A stretch of 64,000 nucleotides of DNA, taken from NCBI RefSeq assembly GCF_963677155.1, contig NZ_OY781884.1, positions 1 to 64,000 of the forward strand. Direction: 5' to 3'. This DNA comes from an uncultured Draconibacterium sp. (GTDB lineage: Bacteria; Bacteroidota; Bacteroidia; Bacteroidales; Prolixibacteraceae). Below, one piece after another: positions 48,186 through 63,791 of the stretch; the stretch's first letter is position 1; each line of letters opens with the position of its first letter. The translations under genes were made by a program, and so were the position numbers. Below the pieces are notes generated by a model. That model saw only the letters and a list, made by a program, of their open reading frames with translations. It ran no database searches and was not told the DNA's origin.

Positions 48186-48583
48186 GGGGCTGACTGGTTT
48201 TGACAGCGGGTAGAAGAGACAAGTAAGCATGTCGGGTTTTGGTTGTTGACCCGTAAAAAATAATGACCAAAACCATAATTGGCGAAAATAATTACGCTCT
48301 TGCTGCGTAATCTAACAGTTTAGATTACACTTAATTCCGAAACAAGGTTTTGGAACAAGACATCGCCCGGATGCTAATGCTTTGAAGCGGTCCGGTCAGG
48401 CGGTGCAAATAAATCGAAGCTAGCTTAAACGAGGCTCTGGCGTTTTTGCGAAATTAAAAGAGATAAGGTAGTAGTTGGTGGCTTTGATCCGGCTGTTATT
48501 CGAAAATTAAGTCAGAGATAAACATGTAGAAAGCTTGTAGCTTCCTCGTTTGGACGCGGGTTCGACTCCCGCCAGCTCCACCC
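48186..48583 (+). ncRNA. ssrA: Transfer-messenger RNA (tmRNA)
   Basis: The 5' end GGGGCTGACTGGTTTTGACAG is the universal tmRNA start. The 3' end TTCGACTCCCGCCAGCTCC supplies the T-arm and the acceptor strand, pairing GGGGCTG with CAGCTCC; the discriminator A is at 48580. The reading frame GGC GAA AAT AAT TAC GCT CTT GCT GCG TAA (48281-48310) encodes the tag GENNYALAA (preceded by the charged Ala). It rescues stalled ribosomes and tags the product for proteolysis. The CCA end is not encoded exactly (ACCCA follows), which may reflect a recombined attachment site. A terminator stem follows at 48588. Confidence 0.97.
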
Positions 48584-50150
48584 AACGGGGGATTTCATCA
48601 ATTTTGTTGTAATCCCCTTTTTTGTATCCTCTCAAATCCCTTGCTATTTCAGGGATAAAGGTAAAAAAGGTATTGATTCTTACTGTTCGAACTCGATCCA
48701 ATTCTCGGTTGTAGTAAATTCCTTCTGGGAATAAAAGATTTTGAAAAATCTTCTTCCCGTTTAAGTCGCTGGAGTCCCACAGTTTCATAGGATTTCGACA
48801 TAAATCAACCGCATAATTCACTACTTTTTTAAGGTTCGAACTATATCCACCAACTTTATTTAATTCTTGTTCAATTGCAAAACATTCCTTTTCGTATCTA
48901 TTTCTAAATTTATCGTATAAAGTTCGATCTATTTCACCAATAACGAAACGTTCTTCAATAGCCTCTACCCTCCTTCTTGTTTCTGTCAATCTCAATTTTA
49001 ACGCCCTGGAATCATCTAATTGATTTTTGAAGAAACCAGTCATTTGTTCTTCCAGTTGAACTTTGATAATAGAAGTCGTTTCGGGATCAATTTGGAACAT
49101 GTTTAATATGTTACGGAATAGATCATGCATAGTTTTTGCACTTCTATTTACATTACATCCTTTTGATCTGCATTTATAATAATATAAATCGTTCTTTTTT
49201 ACCTTATAGCCTGTAATCGAACTACCACATTTTTCACACTTTGTAAACACCTTTAAAGGTAGGTTTTCACTATCCATATCATGAACAAAGCCATGTACCC
49301 GTTTCTCATTTCTGATATTATTCGCTGCCAAAAATAATTTCTTTGAGATAAGTGGAGTATGTTTGCCTTCTACTACTTTATCAGGAATAAGCTTACTTAC
49401 AATCAGGCCACAATAAAAAGGATTAACAAATAGCTCATGTAGCTTCTTATCAGTGATATTTACTCCAAGTTTTTGAAGTTTTCGTACAATTTCAATATTA
49501 GGCAATTCAGAATACGCTTTCCACTCAAAAGCTTTTTTGAGAATTTTTCCCTCTTTATTAATAATAATTTGGCGCTCTGTGGCTTTACTTCCCTTATTTA
49601 AAACGTCATAACCACGAGGTGGTTTCCAAACCCAATAGCCTTTCATTAACATTTCACGCATGCCGGTAACAACCTTATCGCGCCTGAGTTCGTTATCCAT
49701 TTGCCCAAACAAGAAAAGTATCTTTTGCTGGAAAGAACCAGATGGTGTAGTCGGGTCAAGCTCCTGAGTTGTAGCTAAAGTTATTACGCCGTACTTTTTA
49801 AGTAGTTCATCGGCAATAGATGCACCGTTGATTCCGGAACGAGAAAACCTTTCGTAGGAATAAACAATCACATAGCTGATATTTTTTGATCTCTTTACAA
49901 AGGTTAACATCCGGTTAAACTCTTTCCGGTCATCGGTTTTCGCTGATTCATAGGTACCACCAAAATAACCAACCACGTTTAAGTCGCGTTTGCTCGCATA
50001 CATCTCACAATATCTTTTTTGCGAGGCAAGGCTGGTATTATCTTCCTGATCAGCTGATGATACCCGGGTGTAAATTACAGCATTGTTTCCCTCATGGAAT
50101 TTCTTTGGAGCTTGTGGAGCAAATTGTTTAAACAGGCTTAAATCATTCAT
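48507..50150 (-). CDS. Serine recombinase (resolvase/integrase family) whose C-terminus is antisense to ssrA
   Basis: This 547-aa site-specific recombinase has an N-terminal resolvase catalytic domain with NAVIYTRVSSADQ (nucleophile Ser31), VYSYERFSRSG and LFGQMDNELRRDKV. A recombinase domain (about 165-270, GYWVWKPPRGYDVLNKG) follows. A zinc ribbon has CEKC and CRSKGC (about 305-335), then a coiled coil (about 350-430). Its last 24 or so codons (VELAGVEPASKRGSYKLS and on) read antisense across the ssrA 3' end and its terminator, so the attachment site is part of the gene. It probably mobilised the element inserted at ssrA. Cleavage core and far end are not visible. The leading residue block is intact. 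Confidence 0.85.
   Translation of the reverse strand: MNDLSLFKQFAPQAPKKFHEGNNAVIYTRVSSADQEDNTSLASQKRYCEMYASKRDLNVVGYFGGTYESAKTDDRKEFNRMLTFVKRSKNISYVIVYSYERFSRSGINGASIADELLKKYGVITLATTQELDPTTPSGSFQQKILFLFGQMDNELRRDKVVTGMREMLMKGYWVWKPPRGYDVLNKGSKATERQIIINKEGKILKKAFEWKAYSELPNIEIVRKLQKLGVNITDKKLHELFVNPFYCGLIVSKLIPDKVVEGKHTPLISKKLFLAANNIRNEKRVHGFVHDMDSENLPLKVFTKCEKCGSSITGYKVKKNDLYYYKCRSKGCNVNRSAKTMHDLFRNILNMFQIDPETTSIIKVQLEEQMTGFFKNQLDDSRALKLRLTETRRRVEAIEERFVIGEIDRTLYDKFRNRYEKECFAIEQELNKVGGYSSNLKKVVNYAVDLCRNPMKLWDSSDLNGKKIFQNLLFPEGIYYNRELDRVRTVRINTFFTFIPEIARDLRGYKKGDYNKIDEIPRWVELAGVEPASKRGSYKLSTCLSLT
48588..48623 (+). terminator. ssrA terminator, inside the recombinase coding frame
   Basis: GGGGATT (48588-48594), loop, AATCCCC (48611-48617), then six T. 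It lies antisense within the recombinase 3' coding region. Confidence 0.8.
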
Positions 50151-50222: not shown

Positions 50223-50408
50223 TTATTTTTTCAACATGAAAGCTTTCAATATCAGTAAAGCAATCGTTTCCGAATCTTTAATAAGCTTCTCATAATCAGA
50301 AGATGTCAAATCTTTGTATTTAGGAATAGAACGTATCTTCTCCAATGAGAGTCTCTTTTTGACTCTTTCTGTGGCTTCTTCAATACTTCTATTTTCGTTT
50401 TTTTGCAT
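50223..50408 (-). CDS. Small hypothetical protein (61 aa)
   Basis: A charged, helix-rich frame, MQKNENRSIEEATERVKKRL, then KYKDLTSSDYEKLIKDSET and a hydrophobic C-terminus (IALLILKAFMLKK). It is not recognised as a family. It is located 72 bp upstream of the recombinase on the same strand, so it may belong to the mobile element, perhaps as a directionality or toxin/antitoxin-type partner. That is speculation. Confidence 0.45.
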   Translation of the reverse strand: MQKNENRSIEEATERVKKRLSLEKIRSIPKYKDLTSSDYEKLIKDSETIALLILKAFMLKK

Positions 50409-50676: not shown

Positions 50677-51816
50677 TTATTCTACCGTCAACAAAACCGT
50701 TCCATAAGAAAACCGTCCACTCTCCGGCACAAGTAGTAAAATCTTGTCATTAGCTTTCAGTTTCCCAAAGTTCATCAAATCATCCAATGCAGCAAAGATG
50801 GAAGCAGAAGCGATATTTCCAATTTCAGTAAGATTAGTGAACCACTTGTTCGTTCCCAGGTCCAAACCTTTTTCTTCAATTCCTTCAGCAAGTTTTCCGT
50901 AAAAGAACATGGATGAAACATGAGGGATCACATGATCCACATCCGCTGGATTAAGATCATATTTTTCCAGACAATATTCCAGGTGGTCAACCCAGTAACG
51001 AATAATATTGGGTTTAAGTAACCGGATGTTTTGCTTAACTGTCAAAACAGACCTATTGATTAACTCCTGACTGTCAAATTCTTTCCAGCTTTTTAATTCT
51101 CCATCTTTACGAAGTTCAGCGCCCATAAACATGCAAGTAGGCAGTTCGTTGGCATAGGATGTCATTTCAACCCATTCCACTTTGAACGAAATTCCATTCC
51201 TGCTCTTTTTATCAGAAAGCAATACCGAGCTGGCACCATCACTAAGCATAAAGCGCAGAAAATCCTTTTCAAAAGCCATGTATGGATCTTTGCCCACCTG
51301 CGAACAATGTTCATACTCTTCTTCATAATTTTTTGACAACAAGGTAGGAGAAGCCAACTCTGAAGTAGAACAGATGGCTTTTGATGAAACCCCGGACAAA
51401 ACAGAAAGATAAGCTGTTTTAAAAGCCTGCAGGCAAGTAAGGCATACTCCCGAAGCGGAATACAGTTCCATTGGCCTGTTTTTCATTAAACCATGAACCA
51501 TCGATGCATGTGATGGTAATAACTGGTCAGGATTGCCTGTTGCACATGCCAATACATCAATATCTTCCGGAATTCTCTCATCAGGAAATAGCTTTTGTAT
51601 TGAACGGAATGCCAGCTCTGCATTGGTGTGCGTAATCTTTTGATTTTTGTCCAGAGCATAATACCTGGACTTAATACCGTTTTGTTTTAAAACGATGCGC
51701 CTTACTCTTGATGGCTTTGAATTGATTAAACCAAGATATTGTTCCATATCTTCGTTTTTAATTGGGGAATTGGGTAAGAATTTACCGGTAGCGGTGATGT
51801 AAACGGATGTATTCAT
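50677..51816 (-). CDS. 3-oxoacyl-ACP synthase III-like (thiolase-fold ketosynthase)
   Basis: This 379-aa cytoplasmic KASIII-family enzyme has the N-terminal KNEDMEQYLG and LACATGNPDQLLPSHASM, a nucleophile Cys at 125 or 128 in SASGVCLTCLQAF, His in VIPHVSSMFFYG and Asn in LTEIGNIASASIF, so a Cys-His-Asn triad is present. It has a long insertion (about 175-265) unlike FabH. No acyl carrier protein, reductase or other polyketide gene is adjacent, so this is not classical fatty-acid FabH; a specialised acyl-transfer or alkylresorcinol-type condensation is possible. It is 67 bp downstream of a TetR gene, with a palindromic operator between them. Confidence 0.8.
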   Translation of the reverse strand: MNTSVYITATGKFLPNSPIKNEDMEQYLGLINSKPSRVRRIVLKQNGIKSRYYALDKNQKITHTNAELAFRSIQKLFPDERIPEDIDVLACATGNPDQLLPSHASMVHGLMKNRPMELYSASGVCLTCLQAFKTAYLSVLSGVSSKAICSTSELASPTLLSKNYEEEYEHCSQVGKDPYMAFEKDFLRFMLSDGASSVLLSDKKSRNGISFKVEWVEMTSYANELPTCMFMGAELRKDGELKSWKEFDSQELINRSVLTVKQNIRLLKPNIIRYWVDHLEYCLEKYDLNPADVDHVIPHVSSMFFYGKLAEGIEEKGLDLGTNKWFTNLTEIGNIASASIFAALDDLMNFGKLKANDKILLLVPESGRFSYGTVLLTVE

Positions 51817-51835
51817 AGCGGATAATTATACTGTT

Positions 51836-51868
51836 TGGTATGTAAATGTATACATTTTTCACATACCA
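51836..51868. promoter_or_regulatory. Candidate TetR operator upstream of the ketosynthase
   Basis: Outer arms TGGTATGT (51836-51843) and ACATACCA (51861-51868) enclose the perfect 14-bp palindrome AAATGTATACATTT (51844-51857). The half-site GGTATGT/ACATACC is also found upstream of the TetR gene at 52609-52630. It overlaps the region where the KASIII promoter should lie, 20-50 bp upstream of its start. Confidence 0.65.
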
Positions 51869-51882
51869 TTGCTATGAAATGG

Positions 51883-52476
51883 TCAGGATTTTATTACTAA
51901 CTGACTATAGATGGTTTGATATATGGCACTTAATTCCTCTGTATTTATGCCGTATGAGAGGCATCTGTCGAAAGCCAGCCCCAGGAAACAACTGCGAAAC
52001 AGTGTCGCATAATGCCTGGTATTTACTTTCTTTATTTCCTTCGTTTCTATAGCTCTTTTAATTACTTTTTCCCATAGGTCTGTCTCTTTTATAGAATTCT
52101 GTGTCATTATTGCAGAAAAGTTGGGATAGATTCGTGAAGCCTGCAGATACAACGAAAAATACTGCTTGTAGATATTGACTACTGATAGGGATAACATTTT
52201 TGACATTGTTGTATTTATGCCATTGACATACCTGTTTATAAACTGATTTAGCGACATGTTTTTATCGAACGTAAACTTCTGAAAGGGATCCTGGATCTCT
52301 ATCATATAGGTGTTTATTACCTCTATAAATATTTCTTCTTTGTTTTTGAAAAAATAGAAAATAGCCCCCCTGGTTTTCCCGGTGGCGTTTTCGATAGCAG
52401 AAATACTTACTTTTTCAAAGTTGTTGTTCAAAAACAGTTTAAATGCTTCTTCTGTGATTTGCTCCCTGGTTGTCAT
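51883..52476 (-). CDS. TetR/AcrR-family transcriptional regulator
   Basis: A 197-aa repressor with an N-terminal TetR HTH (residues about 3-50): TREQITEEAFKLFLNNNFEK then SISAIENATGKTRGAIFYFF and KNKEEIF. The C-terminal ligand-binding half is helical and variable. It precedes a KASIII-like gene on the same strand, and related inverted repeats (ACATACC/GGTATGT) lie upstream of both. Autoregulation and control of the ketosynthase by a lipid-like ligand are inferred. Start ATG 52476; a TAAGTTTG box (minus strand, 52506-52499) is probably its promoter. Confidence 0.85.
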   Translation of the reverse strand: MTTREQITEEAFKLFLNNNFEKVSISAIENATGKTRGAIFYFFKNKEEIFIEVINTYMIEIQDPFQKFTFDKNMSLNQFINRYVNGINTTMSKMLSLSVVNIYKQYFSLYLQASRIYPNFSAIMTQNSIKETDLWEKVIKRAIETKEIKKVNTRHYATLFRSCFLGLAFDRCLSYGINTEELSAIYQTIYSQLVIKS

Positions 52477-52941: not shown

Positions 52942-53502
52942 ATGTCAGAGATTATCATAAATAAGGGCGGGCAGAACCTTGTATTCCCGGAAGGTAGGCG
53001 CTATTCTAAAAGAAGACACTGGTATATCTTTTATCTTCGGCCGCGAACGGAAAGAATTGTATACCTAACCCTTAAAAGTCTTGGTTACGAGGTGTTCTGT
53101 CCGGTAATTCAACGAATCAAAACCTGGAAGAACAGGCAACGGAAGAAGATAAAGCTTCCGCTTTTCCCGAATTACATGTTTGTTTATACCTATCCGCATG
53201 AGTTGTATGCTATTCGTAGTTTTCCGCAGGTGGTAAACTATGTTTCCTTCGCGGGCAAGCCGGGTACATTATCGAGGAAAGAAGTAGAAGGGATTCAAAA
53301 GATGTTGGGATTAAGAAATGCAGTTACCCTGGAAACGATATTTCTCAAAGGTGAACATGTGCGTATTATTTCCGGGCCGTTGAAAGGTCATGAGGGGATT
53401 TTGGTCAGGCTACGGAACAAAAGCAGGTTTGGAATCCGTTTAAAAGCGATCAATCATGCCGTATTTATCGATATAAGCCAGTCTGATCTGGAAAAGCTAT
53501 AA
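52942..53502 (+). CDS. UpxY/LoaP-type NusG-like transcription antiterminator
   Basis: This 186-aa protein has a NusG N-terminal domain (about 25-120; RHWYIFYLRPRTERIVYLTL, KIKLPLFPNYMFVY) and a C-terminal KOW motif (FLKGEHVRIISGPLKGHEGI, about 135-155). UpxY-type NusG paralogues bind RNA polymerase and allow read-through of long, specific operons in Bacteroidota; they normally stand first in the operon they control. Here the downstream genes on the same strand are a Crp-like regulator, a MauE-fusion protein and a DUF6520-like peptide. The N-terminus carries an extra 25 residues before the NGN domain. Confidence 0.85.
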   Translation: MSEIIINKGGQNLVFPEGRRYSKRRHWYIFYLRPRTERIVYLTLKSLGYEVFCPVIQRIKTWKNRQRKKIKLPLFPNYMFVYTYPHELYAIRSFPQVVNYVSFAGKPGTLSRKEVEGIQKMLGLRNAVTLETIFLKGEHVRIISGPLKGHEGILVRLRNKSRFGIRLKAINHAVFIDISQSDLEKL

Positions 53503-53637
53503 TTTGCACTGAACTTCCACCTGGGACGAAAGTGGCCGGTGTAACCTGACGCTGGCCGACAGAACCGGCTGAAACATTTTCTCATCAGTGGAAACATTAG
53601 TCCTATCTTTTAAACCTGGATACAAAATTCATTCGTT

Positions 53638-54249
53638 ATGAAAAAACACAGTTTATATGATGTCATTTTTAAAATGAGGCCTATGCCCAAAAAGCTTACA
53701 GAACGATCTTATGTTGATGCGCTTATTGCAGCCGTTGATGAGTGTATAACTATTACCGAACACCGGTACCGGTCGTTGTTGCTTAATGCCGGACATACCT
53801 CCGATTACCTCTATTTTATAGAGAACGGTATCGCACGGTGCTTCTATTTTGATGACCGTACTGGCAGGGAACTTACTTCTATCCTTTGGAAGGAACAGAG
53901 TATCGTTTGTGATCCTGTAAGCTTCTTTCAACGAAAAACTTCGGAGGTTAATATCGAAGTAATGCCCGGCAGTTTGTTGCTTTCAATTTCTTACCGTCAA
54001 CTACAGGACCTATTTCAGGAGTTCCCTGAAGCAGGAGTTTTTGAACGTTGTGTTTCCCTTCAGTATGTTTACTTTTTTGCCCAAAGAGCCCGGCAGTTGG
54101 CGGTGAACTCTCCATGGGAAAGATATTTACATTTATTATCAACTCATCCGGATATCGAATTAAAAGTGTCAAAAGAAATTATAGCATCCTATCTGAATAT
54201 AGCCCCGCAGACACTGAGTAAAATGCTTCGGAAGAGAGGACATCCCTGA
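53638..54249 (+). CDS. Crp/Fnr-family transcriptional regulator
   Basis: A 203-aa protein with an N-terminal cyclic-nucleotide-binding-like barrel (about 20-130; YLYFIENGIARCFYFDDRTGRELTSI) and a C-terminal helix-turn-helix (about 165-200; SKEIIASYLNIAPQTLSKMLRKRG). Cys residues typical of Fnr iron-sulphur binding are absent. It sits 135 bp after the UpxY-like gene and 306 bp before the next gene, so it may be transcribed separately. A TATCTTTT box near 53606 is a possible promoter. Its likely targets are the neighbouring peptide/export genes. Confidence 0.8.
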   Translation: MKKHSLYDVIFKMRPMPKKLTERSYVDALIAAVDECITITEHRYRSLLLNAGHTSDYLYFIENGIARCFYFDDRTGRELTSILWKEQSIVCDPVSFFQRKTSEVNIEVMPGSLLLSISYRQLQDLFQEFPEAGVFERCVSLQYVYFFAQRARQLAVNSPWERYLHLLSTHPDIELKVSKEIIASYLNIAPQTLSKMLRKRGHP

Positions 54250-54555
54250 TTGTTCAGAAGATTTGAACCTAAAAATTTATGAGCAGTTCCAATAATTCTC
54301 CTTTCGTACTCCGATTTTTACAATGGCTACTCTTCATAACCTTAAGAATTTTCTTAATCCAGGTTCTTTCATTTATTAATTCAGGTTCAGAGGATCGACC
54401 GGGCACAACTGTACCTTTGAAAATGAGTTGACTAAAAAAAATGGCCTTTAATGTTTACCAGTAAAATGGATGTATGCCTGGGCTGCAAAGTGGTCAATTC
54501 ATTTGCGGATTGAATTTTCCCGCAGACAGACCTTTAAAATAAAGCATTATAAGCT
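54250..54555. other. Intergenic region before the MauE-fusion gene
   Basis: 306 bp without a convincing gene; only a 15-codon frame (MDVCLGCKVVNSFAD, near 54467-54514) stands out and may be chance. It probably contains the promoter of the MauE-peptide unit. Confidence 0.4.
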
Positions 54556-56088
54556 ATGAAAAAGCTCCATCCAAAACACTTTAGCATTCTTGTTCCGGTT
54601 ACAGCCTATTTATATGTCCTGCTTTTTGTGTATGCAGGAATAAGTAAATTGATGGATTACGAAAACTTCACGGTTCAGCTGGGCCAGTCTCCGTTGCTTA
54701 GCGCCTATGCCGGTTTGATTGCTCCAACTGTAATCGCACTGGAGTTGTTGCTGTCACTGTCGTTGATTCGAAAAAATACCCGGCTTATTGGTCTGTATGC
54801 ATCGTTATTCTTAATGGTTGCATTTACCGTATATATTTACCTTATTCTGAATTACAGCGATTTTGTTCCCTGTTCCTGTGGAGGTATCATTGAAAAAATG
54901 AACTGGACCGAGCACATGGTCTTTAATATCTCCTTTGCTGCACTAGCTCTTTTTGCTATTGTGCTTTCGGAGAAAAAGAAAAGAACCCGAATTCGTTTTG
55001 TAATTTTAAAGAGCCTTTTGCCATCCCTGCTTGCAGCAGGTGCTGTTGTTGCACTTTTCTTATCTTCTGAGCATATTATTAAAAAAGAAAACAGTTTTAT
55101 CCGCAGGTTTGGCCAACATCCAATCCGTGATGAAAAGGCCGTGGACCTGGAGGTAAACTCCTATTATTTTGCAGGGATGAATGATGGGCAAATCTATCTT
55201 GGAAACTCTACAGCCCCATTGCTAATCACCCAAATAGATACGGCACTAACCAATAAGAAGGCAGTTAAAATAGAACTTGATAACGTCGATCATTCTTTTC
55301 GTTATATACAGTTACAGGTAAAGCCACCCCATTTTTATTTTTACGATGGTACGGTCCCGGTGATTTATCGCGGACATTTAGGCGATACAACGGCGCATAC
55401 GGTTAGCATTAACGACTGTTATTTTTCCCAGCTTCAGGTAATCGATTCCGTTAATTTTGCTTTTCGGGCACAAAGCAGCCAAACAAAATCATGGGTGCTG
55501 GGGACTTTGAATCTTGAAGCCGACCCAAATATAAGGCTAGCCCAAAGCTTGCTTGAAAAACAAGTTGACGGAATATTTGATACCGACGGTCAATTACTTT
55601 ATGATGATGCAAGCAGAGAACTCGTCTATATTTATTACTACCGCAACCAATTCCTTATAATGGACCAAGAGCTGAATCTGTTGCAGGAGCTAAACACCAT
55701 CGATACTACGTCCAGAGCAAAGGTACAGGTGCGCATGCTTTCTGATGGAAGGTACAAAATGGATGCGCCGCCTTTGCTGGTCAACAAAACATCGACAGTA
55801 CACCGGCAGGTTCTTTTTAATCTCTCCATGCTCATGGGGAAATACGAGTCACGGGAACAGTGGGAAAAAGCTTCTGTAGTTGATATGTACCGGACCGGAG
55901 GACGGGAATACCTGGGAAGTTTTTATGCCTATCACCGGGGAGAGAACAAGTTGTCCGGGCTATTGGCTACGAACAATCACTTGTTCATATTATCAGGAAA
56001 TGAACTGGTGCGTTACAGTTTTGCGCAGGCTGTGACACGCAATTTTCAAAAAGGGGAAGCTGAAAACCTTGAACAGAGTAGGCAATAA
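54556..56088 (+). CDS. MauE/DoxX-like redox membrane protein with large C-terminal exported domain
   Basis: This 510-aa protein has four to five TM helices in residues about 10-180. It begins with the family's VLLFVYAGISKLMDYENF and has a CxC pair in FVPCSCGGIIEKMNW (Cys106, Cys108), the position where MauE-type proteins carry redox-active cysteines. After the last TM (about 155-170) about 340 residues follow outside the membrane. They are beta-rich (IYLGNSTAPLLITQID, FYFYDGTVPVIYRGHLGD, LFILSGNELVRYSF), resembling a beta-propeller or BF3164-type lipoprotein fold. This fusion is the notable feature. The gene is 17 bp upstream of a secreted Cys-rich peptide gene, suggesting it handles the disulfides of that peptide. 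Confidence 0.75.
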   Translation: MKKLHPKHFSILVPVTAYLYVLLFVYAGISKLMDYENFTVQLGQSPLLSAYAGLIAPTVIALELLLSLSLIRKNTRLIGLYASLFLMVAFTVYIYLILNYSDFVPCSCGGIIEKMNWTEHMVFNISFAALALFAIVLSEKKKRTRIRFVILKSLLPSLLAAGAVVALFLSSEHIIKKENSFIRRFGQHPIRDEKAVDLEVNSYYFAGMNDGQIYLGNSTAPLLITQIDTALTNKKAVKIELDNVDHSFRYIQLQVKPPHFYFYDGTVPVIYRGHLGDTTAHTVSINDCYFSQLQVIDSVNFAFRAQSSQTKSWVLGTLNLEADPNIRLAQSLLEKQVDGIFDTDGQLLYDDASRELVYIYYYRNQFLIMDQELNLLQELNTIDTTSRAKVQVRMLSDGRYKMDAPPLLVNKTSTVHRQVLFNLSMLMGKYESREQWEKASVVDMYRTGGREYLGSFYAYHRGENKLSGLLATNNHLFILSGNELVRYSFAQAVTRNFQKGEAENLEQSRQ

Positions 56089-56105
56089 ATTTAAATTCTA
56101 CGAAC

Positions 56106-56375
56106 ATGAAAAAGTTAAAAAGTATCATTCTGCCAGTTGCAGTTGTACTCCTGGGAGTTGGAGCTGCTATTGCCGGTAATACGGCAAAAAGTTTGGATGC
56201 ATCAGAACCCGGTTATTATTTTGATACCTCACAGGGGCAGTGTGTATCTTCCGGTGAACAGTGTAGCCCAACACCTGGACAGGCATGTACCTGGAAAGAT
56301 GCCAATGGCATCACACACAACCTGAGCCGTGAAGGCGAAACCATGTGTGGAATACCGCTGTACAAACTGAACTAA
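56106..56375 (+). CDS. DUF6520/NVEALA-like secreted Cys-rich peptide
   Basis: An 89-aa precursor with signal peptide MKKLKSIILPVAVVLLGVGAAIAG (about 1-23). The mature part of about 65 residues holds four Cys: GQCVSSGEQCSPTPGQAC and MCGIPLYKLN at the end. The overall pattern, including the terminal PLYKL, is that of DUF6520 peptides, small exported proteins of Bacteroidota with no known function that commonly travel with MauE-type membrane proteins. Cys spacing suggests two disulfides. It could be a structural, signalling or bacteriocin-like peptide; nothing in the sequence decides. It ends at a terminator (56383) that overlaps the convergent S9 gene. Confidence 0.75.
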   Translation: MKKLKSIILPVAVVLLGVGAAIAGNTAKSLDASEPGYYFDTSQGQCVSSGEQCSPTPGQACTWKDANGITHNLSREGETMCGIPLYKLN

Positions 56376-56382
56376 AGAAGAA

Positions 56383-56407
56383 GGATGCTCTACTGAGCAT
56401 CCTTTTT
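56383..56407 (+). terminator. Terminator overlapping the end of the S9 peptidase gene
   Basis: GGATGCTC (56383-56390), loop TACT, GAGCATCC (56395-56402), then a T tract. The stem lies in the last codons and stop of the convergent peptidase gene. Confidence 0.85.
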
Positions 56408-58894
56408 GCTCATCCCCTTACTTATCCATTCACATTCAACATTATCTTTTAAAAAATAATTAAACCAGTCCAGTATTTTGTAAATCAGGTCATTTTGTGT
56501 TTGTTTTTGCAACAATACATGCCCTTCATTTTTATAAAACAGAGCTATGACATCTTTTTCATTTCTACATAAGGCGTTGTAGAATGCCATGGTGTGATCT
56601 GGCGTTACATTTCTATCCTCAGTTCCTGTCCAGAGTAATACCGGAGCATTCACTTTTTCAGCATGATAGATCGGATTGTTTTTGAAGTAGAGTTCTTTAT
56701 CTGCTGAAAAAGGCACACCAAGTTTATACTGATTGGCTTCAATTCTGACATAATCAGGTATATGAAAACCGTAATTAAAGGAATGGCTATCCCATACAAT
56801 ATCACAATGAGCGGAACCGGAAACGAAAGTAGCAAACCGATCAGAGCGGGTTGCTATGTAATTGGTCTCATAGCCTCCGAAGGAGTGCCCAATCAATCCA
56901 ATTCTTTCCTTGTCAATTGTTGGGTTATGAGCCAATGCCTCCAGTGCATGATTAACACAGTCCAGCGCATCTATGCCAGGCCCATTTTTCCCGGAGATTT
57001 CAATGTCAGGCAGGTACACAAAATATCCTTTTTCGAGTAGTAATCTAATGTTAAAACCGATGCCTTCATATATTGACGGGGAAAGATAACGGCTGGCAAG
57101 ATTGTTTTGCTTTTGGTAAATATGCACGACCATGGGATATTTCTGAGATGGCTTGTATTCCAGCGGGTAATACAAAATTCCCTTTAAAGGAGTTCTTTCT
57201 CTGTTGGTATAGGAAATTAGTTCTTGTTTCAGCGTTAAAATTGTTTCATCCTGTTTATTACTTTCGAAAATAACAACTGGATTTTTTCCAGTTTCTTTAT
57301 AAACCAACCGGGGAGGTTGGTTATAATCTTCTTCGAGCCAGGAAAAGCTGGTAAAGAATCGATTATACTTCAGCGATTGGATGTGTTTGGTTGTTGGAGG
57401 TATAATGACTTCTGTTTTTCCTTTGAACCACAAGCTGTAACCCGTTTGGTTTTTCTGTGGATTGTACAGTTCAATCACCAGGGGATTTGATAGATTTACC
57501 TGTTGAGTGGAAAATCGACCATAGGAAGATTTAATGTCCTCACGCTTGATGTTTACAATTTTGGTAATGTATTCATTAAATTTTGCCAGACAGGTAAGAG
57601 TTTCTGTTTTTATGTCCCATTGCCATACAGCACCCTTCCCTTGAAAAACAACAGACTTGCAATCGGTTGAAAACCATGGCATACTTAAATACTTTCCTTC
57701 AATAAACTTTGTGCCTTTCGAGGGAAGATGATAAAGTTTCCATCCATTTTCAACGGGAGAAAGGGCATAGTTTCCATTTCCCGAGAGATAATATTCAGGA
57801 GCAATGGTATCCAGCTCTACATAATTGTCATCTTTCAGATCATATAAAAACAATTGTATAGGTGGTTGTTCCGACTGGTAGTCCTGTAGCTTCCATGGAT
57901 CAATGCTTAAAAAGTATCTTTTGTTCCTTATGTTAAGCGCTTTGGGTTGCTTATCTGTCCCTGCTCTTCGAATAAAATGGTCACGGGGTTTCCAAATGTA
58001 AGTCATGACAGTAATTGGAGGAAAAAACTTTTCTACCAATCTTTTATCATTACCCCGCCAGATATTCACCATTTCATTCTTTTGCTGTTTTTGGGGTACT
58101 ATCAGTTTTAGAAAATGAACACCATCCTCAATTTCTTCCGTAAATGCTCGTTGGAAAGTTGTTGGCAGAATTTCATTCAAAAGATAGTTTTTTTTAGCCT
58201 GGACATCCAGAAAAACCAGATTTAGAACAGAATCTTGCTGGTTTTGCTCGTGAATTATTAGCTTCTGTCCATCATTGGCAATATCCAGATATGAAATCTT
58301 GTTAATTGTATGATATACCTTTTCAATGGTATTCTCCATAATACGAAAAACATCATAGCCTTGATCCGGATTTTCCGCAAATGCATAAATCTGATCACTC
58401 TTTGTGACAAAGAACCGGATCACCCGATTAACAACATTCAAAAGGAGCCCATCAGTTTTACGCAGTTCAAGTTTGTTCTGTTCATCTTTATTGTAGAGCA
58501 GCACAAACTGCTCTTTGGTTTTTAACACCTGTACTTGTTTTGTTCCCCGATACAAAATACTGTTTTGATCTTTTAAGTTCAACAGTTCGGCCTGGTTTGA
58601 ACGTTGCATCAGCAATTGACCAGTGCCGGTAAAAACAACTGTCTTTACTTTTGTCCGGTAACCCAGCGGATTTCCGGGATGCCGGCTGTCAAAAATCAGC
58701 AGCGTATCCCTGTTTTGGTCATACGATTTCCATGCAGTCAACCATTTGCCATCGTCACTCATCTTCAGTCCGGTAAGCTCATAGTATTTCTTAACCGGAT
58801 ACTGAAGTTCTTCTTCGTTTTGTGCCATTAATTCCTGCCCTGCTGCAAGCAGCAGAGACAGGAATAAGGACAATATGAGAAATTTGGGTTTCAT
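56390..58894 (-). CDS. S9-family serine peptidase (prolyl oligopeptidase/acylaminoacyl peptidase fold)
   Basis: This exported peptidase of about 834 aa starts MKPKFLILSLFLSLLLAAG (signal peptide); ATG 58894 is chosen because it follows the susD stop directly (58896). Residues about 40-560 form a beta-propeller. The alpha/beta-hydrolase domain holds Ser671 in GLIGHSFGGYE, Asp760 in WTGTEDRNVTP and His792 in NEGHVLL, so the triad is complete. Function is presumably cleavage of short peptides in the periplasm, after import through the neighbouring SusC/SusD pair. The coupled reading with susD implies one operon. Confidence 0.85.
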   Translation of the reverse strand: MKPKFLILSLFLSLLLAAGQELMAQNEEELQYPVKKYYELTGLKMSDDGKWLTAWKSYDQNRDTLLIFDSRHPGNPLGYRTKVKTVVFTGTGQLLMQRSNQAELLNLKDQNSILYRGTKQVQVLKTKEQFVLLYNKDEQNKLELRKTDGLLLNVVNRVIRFFVTKSDQIYAFAENPDQGYDVFRIMENTIEKVYHTINKISYLDIANDGQKLIIHEQNQQDSVLNLVFLDVQAKKNYLLNEILPTTFQRAFTEEIEDGVHFLKLIVPQKQQKNEMVNIWRGNDKRLVEKFFPPITVMTYIWKPRDHFIRRAGTDKQPKALNIRNKRYFLSIDPWKLQDYQSEQPPIQLFLYDLKDDNYVELDTIAPEYYLSGNGNYALSPVENGWKLYHLPSKGTKFIEGKYLSMPWFSTDCKSVVFQGKGAVWQWDIKTETLTCLAKFNEYITKIVNIKREDIKSSYGRFSTQQVNLSNPLVIELYNPQKNQTGYSLWFKGKTEVIIPPTTKHIQSLKYNRFFTSFSWLEEDYNQPPRLVYKETGKNPVVIFESNKQDETILTLKQELISYTNRERTPLKGILYYPLEYKPSQKYPMVVHIYQKQNNLASRYLSPSIYEGIGFNIRLLLEKGYFVYLPDIEISGKNGPGIDALDCVNHALEALAHNPTIDKERIGLIGHSFGGYETNYIATRSDRFATFVSGSAHCDIVWDSHSFNYGFHIPDYVRIEANQYKLGVPFSADKELYFKNNPIYHAEKVNAPVLLWTGTEDRNVTPDHTMAFYNALCRNEKDVIALFYKNEGHVLLQKQTQNDLIYKILDWFNYFLKDNVECEWISKGMSKKDAQ

Positions 58895-58895
58895 A

Positions 58896-60266
58896 TTAAT
58901 AGCCGGGATTTTGCGGATATAAGTTGACATTGAGCAACAATTCGTTCAGGGGTAAGGGCCATAAACTTTTGGTATCATTCCAGTTGGATTTCACTGTTTT
59001 TAAATCATCCAGATGCCCCAGACGTTTCAGGTCCAGGAAGCGATGTCCAAACTCAGTAAAAAACTCACGTTGTTTTTCTGTCAGTAGTTCCGTAATAAAT
59101 TCTTCGGAAGAAAGGTCTGTGAGCGGAGTTAAGCCTGCCCGTTCGCGCGAAATATTCAGATAAAGCAAAGCTTCATTCTCCCGGTTTTGTTTAGCCAGAG
59201 CTTCAGCAAGAATAAAGTACACCTCTTCAAGCCGGAAAACTACTGAAAATTCGTTGGTATTGGTACCGGACAAATTTTTGTATTTGTAGGGTCTGTACCA
59301 GGTGTCACCGTTAAAACTGACCGGAGTCATCCAGCGCTGTTTACGCAGATCATTTTCTGCAAAACTGCTGATCAGCTCTTCGGAGAGCACATAGGCATAC
59401 GGTGCTACATCGGAGAAATAATAAAATGATGCTTCTTTTGTGGCATCTCCACTGTTTTGGGGACCCATTTGCCAAAGAATATGGCTGCCATTGTTGTGAA
59501 AAACCTCGCTCAGATCAGGTTGTAACTGGTACAAGGAAGATTGCAGTATCCCATTGGCCAGTTGTTCGGCCTGCTGGTATTTTTGTTCTGTCAGGTACAC
59601 TTTGGCCAATACGAGTTCCGTCACTTTACGGTTGGGATAGATACGTTGTGCATTGCGGTAATTATCATCCAGAAGGGATGCTGCCTCTTCCAGATCTGAT
59701 TCCAGTTGTTCCAATAAAGCAGCTGATTCTGTTTTGCTTAAGTTCCGGTTGTATTCATAATCAATACTGGTTGTATATGGAATGTCCCCAAAGAACTGCT
59801 GCAAATAGAAATAGAGCAGTGAGCGAATAAGCAGAGCTTCTCCCTTTAACTGATTTTTTTCTTCAGCAGAAAGGGAGGTGGAAAGTTCTGTTCCGTTAAT
59901 AATTGAATTGGCATAGTAAATCTGTGTATAGGCCGTGTTCCAAAGATTTGCAATCTTCGTGTTGGTTTCCTGTTGCTGGTTGAGATAAATATCCATCACC
60001 CCATTCTGGTCGTTGTTGTAACAAACCAGTTCATCAGCATAAGATGCAGCCAGAGTGCTCATGGTAAAGTATCCTGCGCCGGATATAAGCGACTGGTCAC
60101 GCAAATCGGCATATAAACCGGACATAGCCGCATTTGCCGTCTGAATATTTTCAAATACCTGGGGTGTTCCCAGTTGATTGGTAGGGGCACTTACCTCTAC
60201 CAGATTTTCGCAGGAGATTAAAACTCCCAGACAAAAAATGAGTATTGTATTTTTTATTCGTTTCAT
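58896..60266 (-). CDS. SusD/RagB-family outer-membrane nutrient-binding lipoprotein
   Basis: A 456-aa lipoprotein with the lipobox FCLGVLISC (Cys19). Domains: N-terminal SusD-like (about 20-190, with TPR helices such as NQLKGEALLIRSLLYFYL) and C-terminal RagB/SusD (about 260-456; FRLEEVYFILAEALAKQN, LLYLNISRERAGL, EFGHRFLDLKRLG). It caps the SusC transporter and captures substrate. No glycan-active enzymes are nearby, and an S9 peptidase follows at once, so the substrate is plausibly a peptide or protein. It is 11 bp from susC. Confidence 0.9.
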   Translation of the reverse strand: MKRIKNTILIFCLGVLISCENLVEVSAPTNQLGTPQVFENIQTANAAMSGLYADLRDQSLISGAGYFTMSTLAASYADELVCYNNDQNGVMDIYLNQQQETNTKIANLWNTAYTQIYYANSIINGTELSTSLSAEEKNQLKGEALLIRSLLYFYLQQFFGDIPYTTSIDYEYNRNLSKTESAALLEQLESDLEEAASLLDDNYRNAQRIYPNRKVTELVLAKVYLTEQKYQQAEQLANGILQSSLYQLQPDLSEVFHNNGSHILWQMGPQNSGDATKEASFYYFSDVAPYAYVLSEELISSFAENDLRKQRWMTPVSFNGDTWYRPYKYKNLSGTNTNEFSVVFRLEEVYFILAEALAKQNRENEALLYLNISRERAGLTPLTDLSSEEFITELLTEKQREFFTEFGHRFLDLKRLGHLDDLKTVKSNWNDTKSLWPLPLNELLLNVNLYPQNPGY

Positions 60267-60277
60267 TTGTTTCGTTT

Positions 60278-63200
60278 TTAAAAATTAAGCTGGATTCCAA
60301 AAGCCCACGTTTTTAAAGGAGGCAGAAAACCGGTGAGAGAAAATTCAGGGTCCAGACCGAAATAATTTGTTAGAGTAAGCAGGTTTTGTCCCTGTACATA
60401 GAATCTTGCGCTTTGCAGGTAATTATTGAATTGCAGTGTGTATCCCAACTGCACGTTTTTGAGGCGGACAAAAGAAGCATCACTGATGGCAGCAGTACTG
60501 CTGCTGTAGTAGCTGTGCAGTTGATTGATTTGCGAATTTGTACCTGATGAATAGGGCATATACTGACCATCGGGATTGTCCTGCGACCATACATTCAGTA
60601 CCTCAACAGGTTGATTGTATATACTTCCCGGACGAGGCATCAGACTGATGTAGTTTTGCTGGCGCTGTTTTACAAACTGAAACAGCAACGAGAACTCCCA
60701 CTGTTTGTAAGAAAGTTGGTTCGACCAGCCTCCGAAATACTTAACGGCGGTATTCTCAATCACCTGATTGTCGTCGGGAGAGGTGATGTTCCCGTCGTTG
60801 TTGTAGTCCGTGAAACGATAAAGTTCCGTTTCAGCATCAATGCCCTCATAATTGTATCCTTTAATTATTGAGGTTGGGTAACCAACAACATATTGATTAG
60901 CATAGGTAGAGCCTTCCAGTCCCGGGAAAGAAATCAGTTTGTTTTTGGGGAAACTGATGTTGATACTGCTGTTCCAGGAGAATTGGTTGCTTTGTACTGG
61001 CGTAGCGCTGAATTCCAGTTCCAGTCCCTTGTTTTCCACTTTTGCAGGGAGATTGGCTTGTATGTTGCTAAATCCGGTAGTGGCGGGCAACGGAATACCA
61101 ACGAGCTGGTTGCCGGAGCGGTTGCGGTACCATGCGGCACTGAATTGTATGCGGTCATTCAGGAAACCCAGTTCCAGAGCTGCCTCCAGTTTGGTGGTTT
61201 TCTCCCAACTGAAGTAGGGGTTATTTAGCCGGGAAGGATACAGACTGGTATTGCCACCATATAATGTATTGCTGACAGTATAAGTATCCAGATACTGGTA
61301 GTCTCCGATCAGGTCGCTACCGGAAATTCCATAGCTGGCCCGTAGTTTTCCGAAGCTTAGCCATTGGCTGGATGCAAAGAAATTTTCCCTTGAAAATAGC
61401 CATGCACCACCAACCGCTCCGAAATTGGCAAAGCGCTGGTTGGGGCCAAATCGACTGGAACCATCCCTTCTACCCGTGAGGTTTACGATGTAACGTTCTT
61501 TGAATTGGTAGTTTATGCGTCCGAATACTGCGGCGTAACGGTATTCCACTTTATCATCACCGCTGACTATAACATTTGCTGCCGCAGCCAGATTCGTGAT
61601 CAGCGCGTTGCTTTCAAAGCCATAACCCATTACATTCAATGCGGTTCGCTGTGTTTGTTGCAGCGTTCCTCCTATCAACATATCGATTTCATGGTTGTTA
61701 AAGGTATGCCGGTAATTCAGCTGGGGCTCTACAAGCCACGAAAACTGCTGGTTCTGGTTTTTGAAAGCCTGTGATAAATCAGGCGTTAATCCGAAAGCTG
61801 GATTGTACATGGTATTGGGGCGAAGCATCAACTCTTCAAATGCAGTATAACTGATTCCTCCGTTTAATTTCAGATACACCGAAGGCAACAATTCGTACTG
61901 TGTATTGAGATTGGTATTAAAGGTTTTACTCTTATACGAGTAGGTACTTTCATAGGCTGCCAGAGGATTGGTAAAAGTGTTGTTTTCCCAGTTCAGGCTG
62001 CCATCTTCATGGTATAAAGCAGGGGCATTGGGAGATAAGCGAATAGCTTCACTCGTAATTTCGCTCTGGATTAAGTTATTGGACTGGTTGGAGAATAATC
62101 CGGACACATTCAGGAGAAAACGATTATCCGTTGAATGGTGACTAAAACTCCCGGAAATATTATCGGTTTTGTATTTGAAGTCATCCGAAAATACGGTGGT
62201 TTGTTCGTTGTGGCTGCCACTGATTATATAGCTGCTTTCTTTACTGCCTCCGCTGAGTGAAAACTGTAGCATCGAGTTGGTTGCTTTCCGGCCAATCAGT
62301 TCTTCCTGCCAGTCGGTATACCGGGTTTCGTCCCAGGTACCGTTTATATCGTAGGCGTTAGGAGGATAATCGGTAATCCCGTCATTGACATAGGCCTGAC
62401 AACGCATTTCAAGGTATTGTTGCGTATTCATCATGTTCATTTTATTGGCTATCCGGCTGACGCCATAACTGCTGTTGATACTAAACACTGTTTTACTGTC
62501 GGCCTTTCCTCTTTTCGTAGTTACCAGTATCACTCCGTTGGCACCGCGCGAACCATATATGGCGGTTGCATCGGCGTCCTTTAATATCTCGATGCTTTCA
62601 ATATCGTTGGGATTAATTGCATTAAGCGGATCAATTTCTCCATGCGGAAGAATTATGCCTCCCAGCGATGTGGGCGTTTGAAGAGTGGCCGGAACCCCGT
62701 CGATGATATAAAGCGGATAATTGCCGCTACGCCGGAGACTGTTTGTTCCCCGGATTTGTATGTCGTAGCCTCCGCCGGGAGTTCCGCTGCTTTGAGTAAT
62801 ATTAACTCCTGCCATACGCCCCTGTACCGATGACAATGCATTACTCACAGGCTGGTTTTCCAGTTCTTTGGCTCTTACCCGGGCAATACTTCCGGTACGC
62901 TCCTGGTCTTTAACCGTGTAATACCCTGCATTTACAGTTACTTCCGAAAGTGTAGTAACATCTTCCTGCAGTTGCACATTTATTTGTGTACGTCCGTTTA
63001 GTGGAATTTCACGGGATTTAAAACCGATAAACGAAAAGATAAGGACGGCATCTTCAGGGGTGTTTTTCATCGAATAGTATCCTTCGGAATTGGTACTGGT
63101 TCCCATTGAGGTGCCTTTAACAACAATCGTAACTCCGGGTAAAGGAGGCCCCGTCATATTTGTTACACGACCGCTTAAGGCAATTGTTTGGGCATAAGCC

Positions 63201-63325
63201 TGGTTTATGGAGAGTATAACCAGCAGACAGACAGGAAATAATAACTGAAGCTGTTTTCGGGCACCGGCGGAAGTTTTGGATGCTAAGCGATAGAACTGAG
63301 TATGGTATAGAATATATTTTTTCAT
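60278..63325 (-). CDS. SusC/RagA-family TonB-dependent outer-membrane transporter
   Basis: The protein is about 1015 aa. After a signal peptide (about 10-45, ending AYAQ) comes a CarboxypepD_reg domain (LSGRVTNMTGPPLPGVTIV), then a plug (LSEVTVNAGYYTV, ALSSVQGRMAGVNITQ, IRGTNSLRRSGNYPLYIIDG, ATAIYGSRGANGVILVTTKRGK). A 22-strand barrel ends TWAFGIQLNF. Start MKKYILYH at 63325 is preferred to the upstream ATG at 63343. There is no N-terminal STN or FecR/sigma gene next to it, so regulation is not by the usual anti-sigma system. It forms an operon with susD and the S9 peptidase. Confidence 0.92.
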   Translation of the reverse strand: MKKYILYHTQFYRLASKTSAGARKQLQLLFPVCLLVILSINQAYAQTIALSGRVTNMTGPPLPGVTIVVKGTSMGTSTNSEGYYSMKNTPEDAVLIFSFIGFKSREIPLNGRTQINVQLQEDVTTLSEVTVNAGYYTVKDQERTGSIARVRAKELENQPVSNALSSVQGRMAGVNITQSSGTPGGGYDIQIRGTNSLRRSGNYPLYIIDGVPATLQTPTSLGGIILPHGEIDPLNAINPNDIESIEILKDADATAIYGSRGANGVILVTTKRGKADSKTVFSINSSYGVSRIANKMNMMNTQQYLEMRCQAYVNDGITDYPPNAYDINGTWDETRYTDWQEELIGRKATNSMLQFSLSGGSKESSYIISGSHNEQTTVFSDDFKYKTDNISGSFSHHSTDNRFLLNVSGLFSNQSNNLIQSEITSEAIRLSPNAPALYHEDGSLNWENNTFTNPLAAYESTYSYKSKTFNTNLNTQYELLPSVYLKLNGGISYTAFEELMLRPNTMYNPAFGLTPDLSQAFKNQNQQFSWLVEPQLNYRHTFNNHEIDMLIGGTLQQTQRTALNVMGYGFESNALITNLAAAANVIVSGDDKVEYRYAAVFGRINYQFKERYIVNLTGRRDGSSRFGPNQRFANFGAVGGAWLFSRENFFASSQWLSFGKLRASYGISGSDLIGDYQYLDTYTVSNTLYGGNTSLYPSRLNNPYFSWEKTTKLEAALELGFLNDRIQFSAAWYRNRSGNQLVGIPLPATTGFSNIQANLPAKVENKGLELEFSATPVQSNQFSWNSSINISFPKNKLISFPGLEGSTYANQYVVGYPTSIIKGYNYEGIDAETELYRFTDYNNDGNITSPDDNQVIENTAVKYFGGWSNQLSYKQWEFSLLFQFVKQRQQNYISLMPRPGSIYNQPVEVLNVWSQDNPDGQYMPYSSGTNSQINQLHSYYSSSTAAISDASFVRLKNVQLGYTLQFNNYLQSARFYVQGQNLLTLTNYFGLDPEFSLTGFLPPLKTWAFGIQLNF

Positions 63326-63791
63326 GGATTTTTTGTTTGGCAAATAGAGTGATTACTAACTATGAAACGTTGTGTTTGAAAAGGCGCCAGGTTGATAATA
63401 CAGCCTGGTTTCGGGGCAGATCTCACTCGGGCGATTTAATTTTGATGCGGTAAAGGATGTTTTGGCGGCTAATAAAAAACACGTAACGCATAGCGGAAAG
63501 GATGGCTGCAAAGTTGTGTGGTTTTTGCAGGCTGCCGGAGGTGTTTGAGCGGATTGGCAGAAGGGTAAAAAGATTACCGTACATCGGGAAAATCAGACAC
63601 AAGTGGGCATAATTTTCCCTGTGTGGAAAGTTTTTCATAAATTTCGATGTTAATTGATGATTATCAAATTAGTTAACATGCAAGCCTGCTACACGTCGCC
63701 AAACTGTTGTAGCGGGCTTACTAGTTGTTCTCTGATTATTTTTTCATAGGCAGCTTGTTTTTTTGATAAAAGCAGAATTACGTAACGTCAT

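Follow-up and report, generated by a model that had tools for sequence, protein, structure and literature searches.

The window analysed here is a stretch of 64,000 nucleotides (positions 1 to 64,000 of contig NZ_OY781884.1, assembly GCF_963677155.1) from an uncultured Draconibacterium sp. of the family Prolixibacteraceae. Near its right end it carries a unit consisting of a MauE/beta-propeller fusion, a DUF6520 precursor peptide with four Cys and, converging on these two, an S9 peptidase, a SusD/RagB protein and a SusC/RagA TonB-dependent transporter (Table 1). The genes of this core unit are tightly linked across Bacteroidota, and the four Cys of the peptide, the CxC pair of MauE, the catalytic triad of the S9 peptidase and the association of an STN-like SusC with FecI/FecR are kept without exception in the relatives compared below. 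We assign a probability of about one half to the reading that the core forms a single system, in which a secreted peptide, locked by disulfides, is paired with its cognate receptor in the outer membrane and opened by the S9 peptidase.

Among 140 Prolixibacteraceae genomes, in which up to six S9 candidates per genome were scored, the full-length fusion occurs in 12 copies in 10 genomes; two further genomes gave weak MauE-only matches. Behind each full-length copy lie a gene for a DUF6520-like peptide and then convergent S9, SusD and SusC genes (SusC is cut by the contig end in locus L041), and the 12 S9 copies with at least 45% identity in these genomes all lie at the same 12 loci. A single-protein scan of genome contigs delivered no matches, and an alignment scan delivered at least 468 relatives of the fusion. 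The best 80 of these (43-73% identical) were kept, so that all counts over 80 loci describe the nearest relatives only; six of them (L100-L104, L127) are the same records as family copies. The hosts include Chryseobacterium, Flavobacterium, Pedobacter, Sphingobacterium, Chitinophaga and others. An open reading frame (ORF) with a signal peptide and four Cys (five in L127) starts -3 to +114 bp from the fusion end at all 80 loci, and convergent S9, SusD and SusC genes are also present at 73 of them, which is at odds with the rare co-occurrence of the peptide/MauE pair and the SusCD-S9 operon that the preliminary description of this DNA had named as grounds for giving up a common unit. Five of the remaining seven loci are located at contig ends (L124, L147, L154, L164, L174), in L160 the S9 gene lies beyond an insert, and L126 carries an S9-like fragment of 81 amino acids (aa). 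Because the arrangement recurs in so many genera, it is more than a product of chance.

The linkage was also seen in an even sample of 345 genomes across the class, with up to four candidates scored per genome. An alignment model identified 11 near-full-length fusions, including that of the window genome (G000), and a model of the S9 N-domain gave 11 matches of at least 185 bits at the same 11 places, the next match reaching 72 bits. No orphan S9 of this type and no orphan full-length fusion was found among the candidates scored in these genomes. All 14 DUF6520 matches over the cut-off in this sample have a MauE gene at a distance of no more than about 1.2 kb; of seven weaker matches, three are located beside MauE and four are not (G196, G438, G226 and G437, frames of 141-289 aa).

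The precursor peptide has a Sec-type signal peptide ending in A-x-A, with all four Cys in the mature part of about 66 residues. From the sequences available, 72 peptides and 57 fusions were aligned; the four Cys are invariant in the former and the CxC of MauE in the latter. MauE serves disulfide formation in the small Cys-rich subunit during maturation of methylamine dehydrogenase, and the earlier suggestion that the MauE part sets the disulfides of the peptide is plausible in view of both invariant Cys sets and of the proximity of DUF6520 and MauE genes. Structure prediction gave an all-beta model of the mature peptide (block means 84-91). The C-domain of the MauE protein (about residues 182-495) is a predicted beta-propeller of the six-bladed type; a search by sequence found no solved relatives of the fusion. 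The separate encoding of MauE, peptide and propeller by three genes in locus L183 speaks for a role of the fused propeller as functional partner. A Trp follows the third Cys in 50 of the 72 peptides only, and a Trp-derived cofactor, as in a methylamine dehydrogenase-like small subunit, was therefore rejected as the general role of the peptide. One MauE fusion followed by two 4-Cys peptides was observed in locus L158 (11552-12199).

The Ser-Asp-His triad is conserved in all 73 S9 relatives, and the window protein is a member of peptidase family S9. The N-domain is the fastest changing part of the S9 protein, with a mean identity of 21% versus 46% for the catalytic part. An N-domain of SusC which we take to be STN, detected via similarity to the SusC N-terminus of L106, is present in exactly those 22 of the 73 complete loci that carry FecI/FecR, with no discordant locus. 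An STN-type receptor combined with FecI/FecR is a sign of inward ligand sensing, in which binding is reported to the sigma factor; this coupling is the only hint of sensing in the unit. It also bears on the possibility that SusCD is an exit route, the TonB-dependent channel secreting the disulfide peptide and the S9 peptidase trimming it. The peptide would have to cross the outer membrane, and SusC is the sole channel of the unit in that membrane, but the STN coupling points inward and S9 and SusCD are encoded on the strand opposite to the peptide, which makes this direction of transport very unlikely.

In the reading preferred here, the peptide would be exported by Sec, the CxC of MauE would form its two disulfides with the propeller as docking domain, and the oxidised peptide would leave the cell. 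The released peptide would then be bound and taken up by its own SusCD pair and cut open by the S9 peptidase in the periplasm. Such a loop would resemble that of lasso peptide, isopeptidase and TonB receptor, or that of a siderophore, with a self-sensing or scavenging peptide that the producer and its kin take back. The core of the window is located on a probably mobile island, whose DarB-TetR/UpxY-Crp block would supply control. We infer the secretion, the ligand identity and the purpose of the peptide from these patterns; uptake via SusCD and cleavage by S9 are indicated only indirectly, by the linkage, by part of the covariation and by the STN-FecI/FecR coupling.

Covariation was assessed by correlation of distances. 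In a narrow set of 13 loci (the 12 family copies and L105) the peptide distances show Spearman correlations with those of S9 (0.76), SusD (0.66), SusC (0.47) and MauE (0.33), S9 being followed more closely than MauE though both adjoin the peptide; against DarB, TetR, UpxY and Crp the peptide gives -0.11 to 0.05. Two groups result, DarB/TetR/UpxY/Crp with mutual values of 0.71-0.91 and peptide/S9/SusD/SusC with 0.47-0.76. Within genome G068 the regulators of loci L044 and L043 are 93-98% alike, with 41% for the peptide and 46% for S9, and L044 resembles L045 of another genus in peptide (71%) and S9 (67%). Judged from these sequences, the regulatory block and the cargo move separately.

Several points weigh against the preferred reading. 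The peptide-S9 correlation of 0.76 comes without a significance test and from pairs that are not independent (L041 equals L042), and in the same 13 loci MauE-SusC (0.58) exceeds peptide-SusC (0.47). In a broad set, the 73 complete loci reduced to 68 by removal of near-identical ones, the mature peptide correlates with S9, SusD and SusC at 0.39-0.48, hardly above MauE (0.37-0.42). With the other genes controlled, its correlation is -0.01 (p 0.575) with the S9 N-domain and 0.02 (p 0.292) with SusD, and it weakly tracks SusC (0.11, p 0.011) and the MauE parts (0.15, p 0.005; 0.18, p 0.001); the strong covariation of S9 with SusD and SusC (0.78-0.91) is what any operon might show. The peptide model has no solved relative, the fold giving no match at E <= 0.001 against the PDB (best E 0.3). 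No outer-membrane exit for the peptide besides SusC is encoded in the unit. Two of the 345 genomes carry peptides and no S9 of this type; in G454 the fusion is split in two, and in G153 MauE and the propeller are encoded by different genes. Secretion, uptake and cleavage of the peptide are themselves deduced from sequence. As the broad set is less clear than the narrow one, matching of peptide and receptor is treated as suggested, not shown.

A sister class of loci has a short MauE. Of 14 such loci, eight were picked via DUF6520 and six, part of the remaining short-MauE matches, via MauE alone. In 13 of the 14, including five of the six MauE-only picks, a signal-peptide ORF with exactly two Cys in the spacing C-x(5-8)-C lies beside MauE and faces SusD and SusC; L193 is without this arrangement. 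Next to SusCD, 11 of the 13 loci encode a thioredoxin-like (AhpC-TSA/DUF3738) protein (the matches in L184 and L187 are weak, and none was seen in L180 and L181), and no S9 was found in the 13 loci. S9 and thioredoxin may be alternative means of opening the peptide. Six further loci in Prolixibacteraceae, termed type B, have the same DarB-TetR/UpxY-Crp block and a 2-Cys peptide of 99-100 aa, the ORF being complete in five loci and 79 aa long in L090. Their SusD is of another type, as is SusC in the five stretches that reach it; a thioredoxin-like protein is present in the four stretches that reach it, and no MauE was found in the six loci. The 2-Cys and 4-Cys DUF6520 classes with their different partners are distinguished here. 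Beside the type B locus L083 (1555-7497) several other small Cys-bearing signal-peptide ORFs were observed, together with a six-bladed propeller (PF17170) and a protein of the Wzy_C type; these may form another peptide system.

The sister class helps to judge a reading in which the peptide remains periplasmic, serving S9 or SusCD as subunit, inhibitor or redox carrier, and SusCD imports outside oligopeptides as food in the manner of RagAB. RagAB-like SusCD pairs import oligopeptides for food, a SusCD pair with a peptidase is a usual nutrient arrangement, and both the strict linkage and the lack of an encoded export route fit this reading too. The 13 sister loci, however, keep peptide and SusCD without S9, so that a role as S9 subunit or inhibitor alone does not explain the peptide-SusCD pair, and behind regulators that are nearly identical the alleles of peptide, S9 and SusCD vary together. 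We regard a purely periplasmic role as unlikely.

The distribution of the loci raises the further possibility of a bacteriocin with self-protection, i.e., a peptide toxic to relatives that enters via SusCD-type receptors and is destroyed in the producer by S9, or by thioredoxin in the sister class. The patchy distribution, the several diverged copies in one genome, the alleles common across genera and the probable mobility seen here are suited to weapon loci, and the fast-changing S9 N-domain fits as well. Orphan immunity genes would be expected, yet no orphan S9 occurred among the candidates scored in the 140 and 345 genomes; moreover, there is no separate immunity gene, and nine proteins gave no PADLOC match. 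A bacteriocin is accordingly quite unlikely. Anti-phage defence was rejected as a candidate, with 0 PADLOC matches at E 0.001 for the nine proteins (SusC not included).

A bolder version of the preferred reading is offered tentatively and must be called doubtful. The loci would be a new class of systems by which Bacteroidota communicate between cells through peptides or recognise kin; disulfide-coded peptides, matured by dedicated MauE proteins, would be read by matched SusCD pairs and erased by a matched S9 (4-Cys) or thioredoxin (2-Cys). In Prolixibacteraceae the alleles would be exchangeable cassettes behind one block, whose DarB-type ketosynthase and TetR regulator would act as a small-molecule quorum switch.

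Among known systems, lasso peptide clusters come close. According to PMC11006600, such clusters (astexin/AtxE2, sphingocin) encode a constrained peptide on one transcript, while the adjacent opposite transcript carries isopeptidase and TonB receptor; a siderophore-like role has been proposed for them. The window likewise has a putatively constrained peptide, a peptidase and a TonB-dependent receptor on opposite transcripts, with SusC adjoining the S9 group. In contrast to the lasso clusters, the transcripts converge instead of diverging, a SusCD pair takes the place of a plain TonB receptor, the constraint would be disulfides on a Sec-exported peptide, and no lasso cyclase, leader peptidase or maturation enzyme was found in a scan of 10 window proteins (48.5-63.3 kb). 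Of the NCBIfam models, lasso isopeptidase fits the window S9 best (E 2.4e-21), with a score of 76.1 bits versus a cut-off of 400, and AtxE2 (5txc) is among the PDB matches of this S9 (E 1e-4), though not the best one. By the isopeptidase cut-off and the lasso enzymes the window locus falls outside the lasso systems, but it shares their logic.

The fusion shares its membrane domain with the MauE of methylamine dehydrogenase maturation and differs in the fused propeller; no methylamine dehydrogenase genes were found among the proteins scanned. SusC and SusD, both over the cut-off, are adjacent and in the usual order as in nutrient loci such as polysaccharide utilization loci and RagAB. Different from the former, no glycan-active or other carbohydrate-active enzyme was found among the 10 proteins scanned, and SusCD is convergent with the peptide/MauE unit. 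The window peptide is a member of PF20130 (DUF6520), a family whose model is named as of unknown function, and no paper naming DUF6520 or NVEALA was found in the open-licence literature. Each gene family is already known, and the unit itself is without a found description in that literature (subscription papers and preprints were outside the scope).

DUF6520 and MauE genes have so far been annotated singly and are here joined into one unit. To our knowledge many SusCD pairs have no assigned ligand; in this unit a candidate ligand is encoded beside the pair, so that the receptor-ligand assignment can be tested directly, using a peptide of about 66 residues. Should the peptide indeed be secreted and retrieved, Bacteroidota would possess a dedicated peptide loop, analogous to the lasso peptide and siderophore loops and built from disulfides and SusCD.

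Upstream of the fusion, DarB, TetR, UpxY and Crp genes are present in the 11 family copies whose contig reaches them (Crp in two frames in L047). The Crp-like protein is 70-88% identical to the nine other copies compared and the TetR protein 74-78% to the 10 other copies compared. The preliminary description placed the system under UpxY/Crp-type regulators, which does not hold in general: UpxY occurs in 5 of the 80 best relatives, all of them same-family records, and elsewhere FecI/FecR, AraC-type or RteC regulators are found (FecI and FecR in 22, RteC in 37 and a TPR/AraC-like regulator in 43 of the 80, anywhere in the stretch). RteC is a regulator of conjugative transposons. RteC-domain and TPR/AraC-like regulators lie upstream of the fusion in loci within L121-L179, mostly from Chryseobacterium and relatives. 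The preliminary frame was also too narrow on the left, since the DarB-type ketosynthase and the TetR gene (50677-52476) are part of the recurring block. The ketosynthase scores 505 versus a cut-off of 550 with the dialkylresorcinol synthase model NF053539, below that cut-off, and belongs to the wider StlD/DarB family. DarB is known from flexirubin synthesis (PMC3992019), and dialkylresorcinols are reported as signals in Photorhabdus (PMC13220807). The DarB-TetR pair may be a small-molecule switch here.

The block is probably a mobile island, and the 3' end of the tmRNA gene is its probable left insertion end. The junction lies at the tmRNA gene in the window and in L043; in L040-L042 it is found at tRNA-Arg(ccg). 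Most of the outer flanks are different; L040-L042 have a common flank on the recombinase side, and L040 and L048 a common ORF on the SusC side. A serine recombinase adjoins DarB in eight of the 12 copies of type A and is absent from this place at all six type B loci, and full-length relatives of it also occur in genomes without the block, by which the recombinase is weakened as proof of mobility. No direct att repeats of more than 12 bases were found at the far island end in seven copies, so that the right boundary could not be fixed. In the window genome the block occurs a second time, near 4.2276 Mb (L081, 10049-19901), with 98% identity along the 3571 nt that lie between the DarB end and the Crp stop; this copy is of type B, with different cargo past Crp, a 2-Cys peptide of 99 aa and a different SusCD. 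A decayed third copy near 103 kb (L082, 7702-10299) has a shortened UpxY, an intact TetR and an interrupted DarB. On the chromosome of G068 several partial DarB remnants were observed, some with internal stops, which suggest that the block was repeatedly gained and then decayed within a single genome.

Table 1. Features of the core unit, the adjoining block and its surroundings in the window.
Feature	Position	Strand	Evidence and remarks
UpxY-type NusG antiterminator	52942-53502	+	NF033644, 116.9 bits vs cut-off 100; lineage-specific regulator
Crp-like regulator	53638-54249	+	Pfam cNMP 23.0 bits (cut-off 27.5), HTH_Crp_2 21.2 bits (cut-off 27); lineage-specific
MauE/beta-propeller fusion	54556-56088	+	PF07291, 101.3 bits vs cut-off 27; CxC = C106/C108
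DUF6520 precursor peptide, 89 aa	56106-56375	+	PF20130, 31.1 bits vs cut-off 25.4; signal peptide, four Cys
S9 (prolyl oligopeptidase family) peptidase	56390-58930	-	PF00326, 92.9 bits; signal peptide; internal start near 58897 likely
SusD/RagB protein	58896-60266	-	PF07980 68.1 bits, PF14322 81.7 bits; lipobox-like start, SCENL in translation
SusC/RagA TonB-dependent transporter	60278-63343	-	TIGR04056, 741 bits; ATG at 63325
TetR-type regulator	51883-52476	-	PF00440, 36.5 bits; divergent from UpxY
StlD/DarB-type ketosynthase	50677-51816	-	NF005293, 489 bits vs cut-off 450
61-aa ORF between DarB and recombinase	50223-50408	-	similar ORF in several other copies
Large serine recombinase	48507-50150	-	PF00239, PF07508; adjoins block
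tmRNA gene, complete	48186-48582	+	ARAGORN; 3' end overlaps recombinase ORF end
71-aa ORF or conserved leader, 5' of SusC	63423-63638	-	similar in most same-genus copies

All parts named in the preliminary description were recovered at the coordinates it gave, and curated models call each of them except the Crp-like protein, which is called Crp-like only because its Pfam scores are below the cut-offs. The end given there for SusC, 63325, is correct as its ATG; the ORF itself runs to 63343. The peptide gene starts 17 bases past the fusion gene, and 14 bases separate the peptide stop from the convergent S9 stop. The 61-aa and 71-aa ORFs gave no Pfam match. A conserved leader, possibly non-coding and common to most same-genus copies, extends from window position 63343 to about 63998; in most of these copies it starts 655 bp before the SusC ORF start, which corresponds to the latter position.

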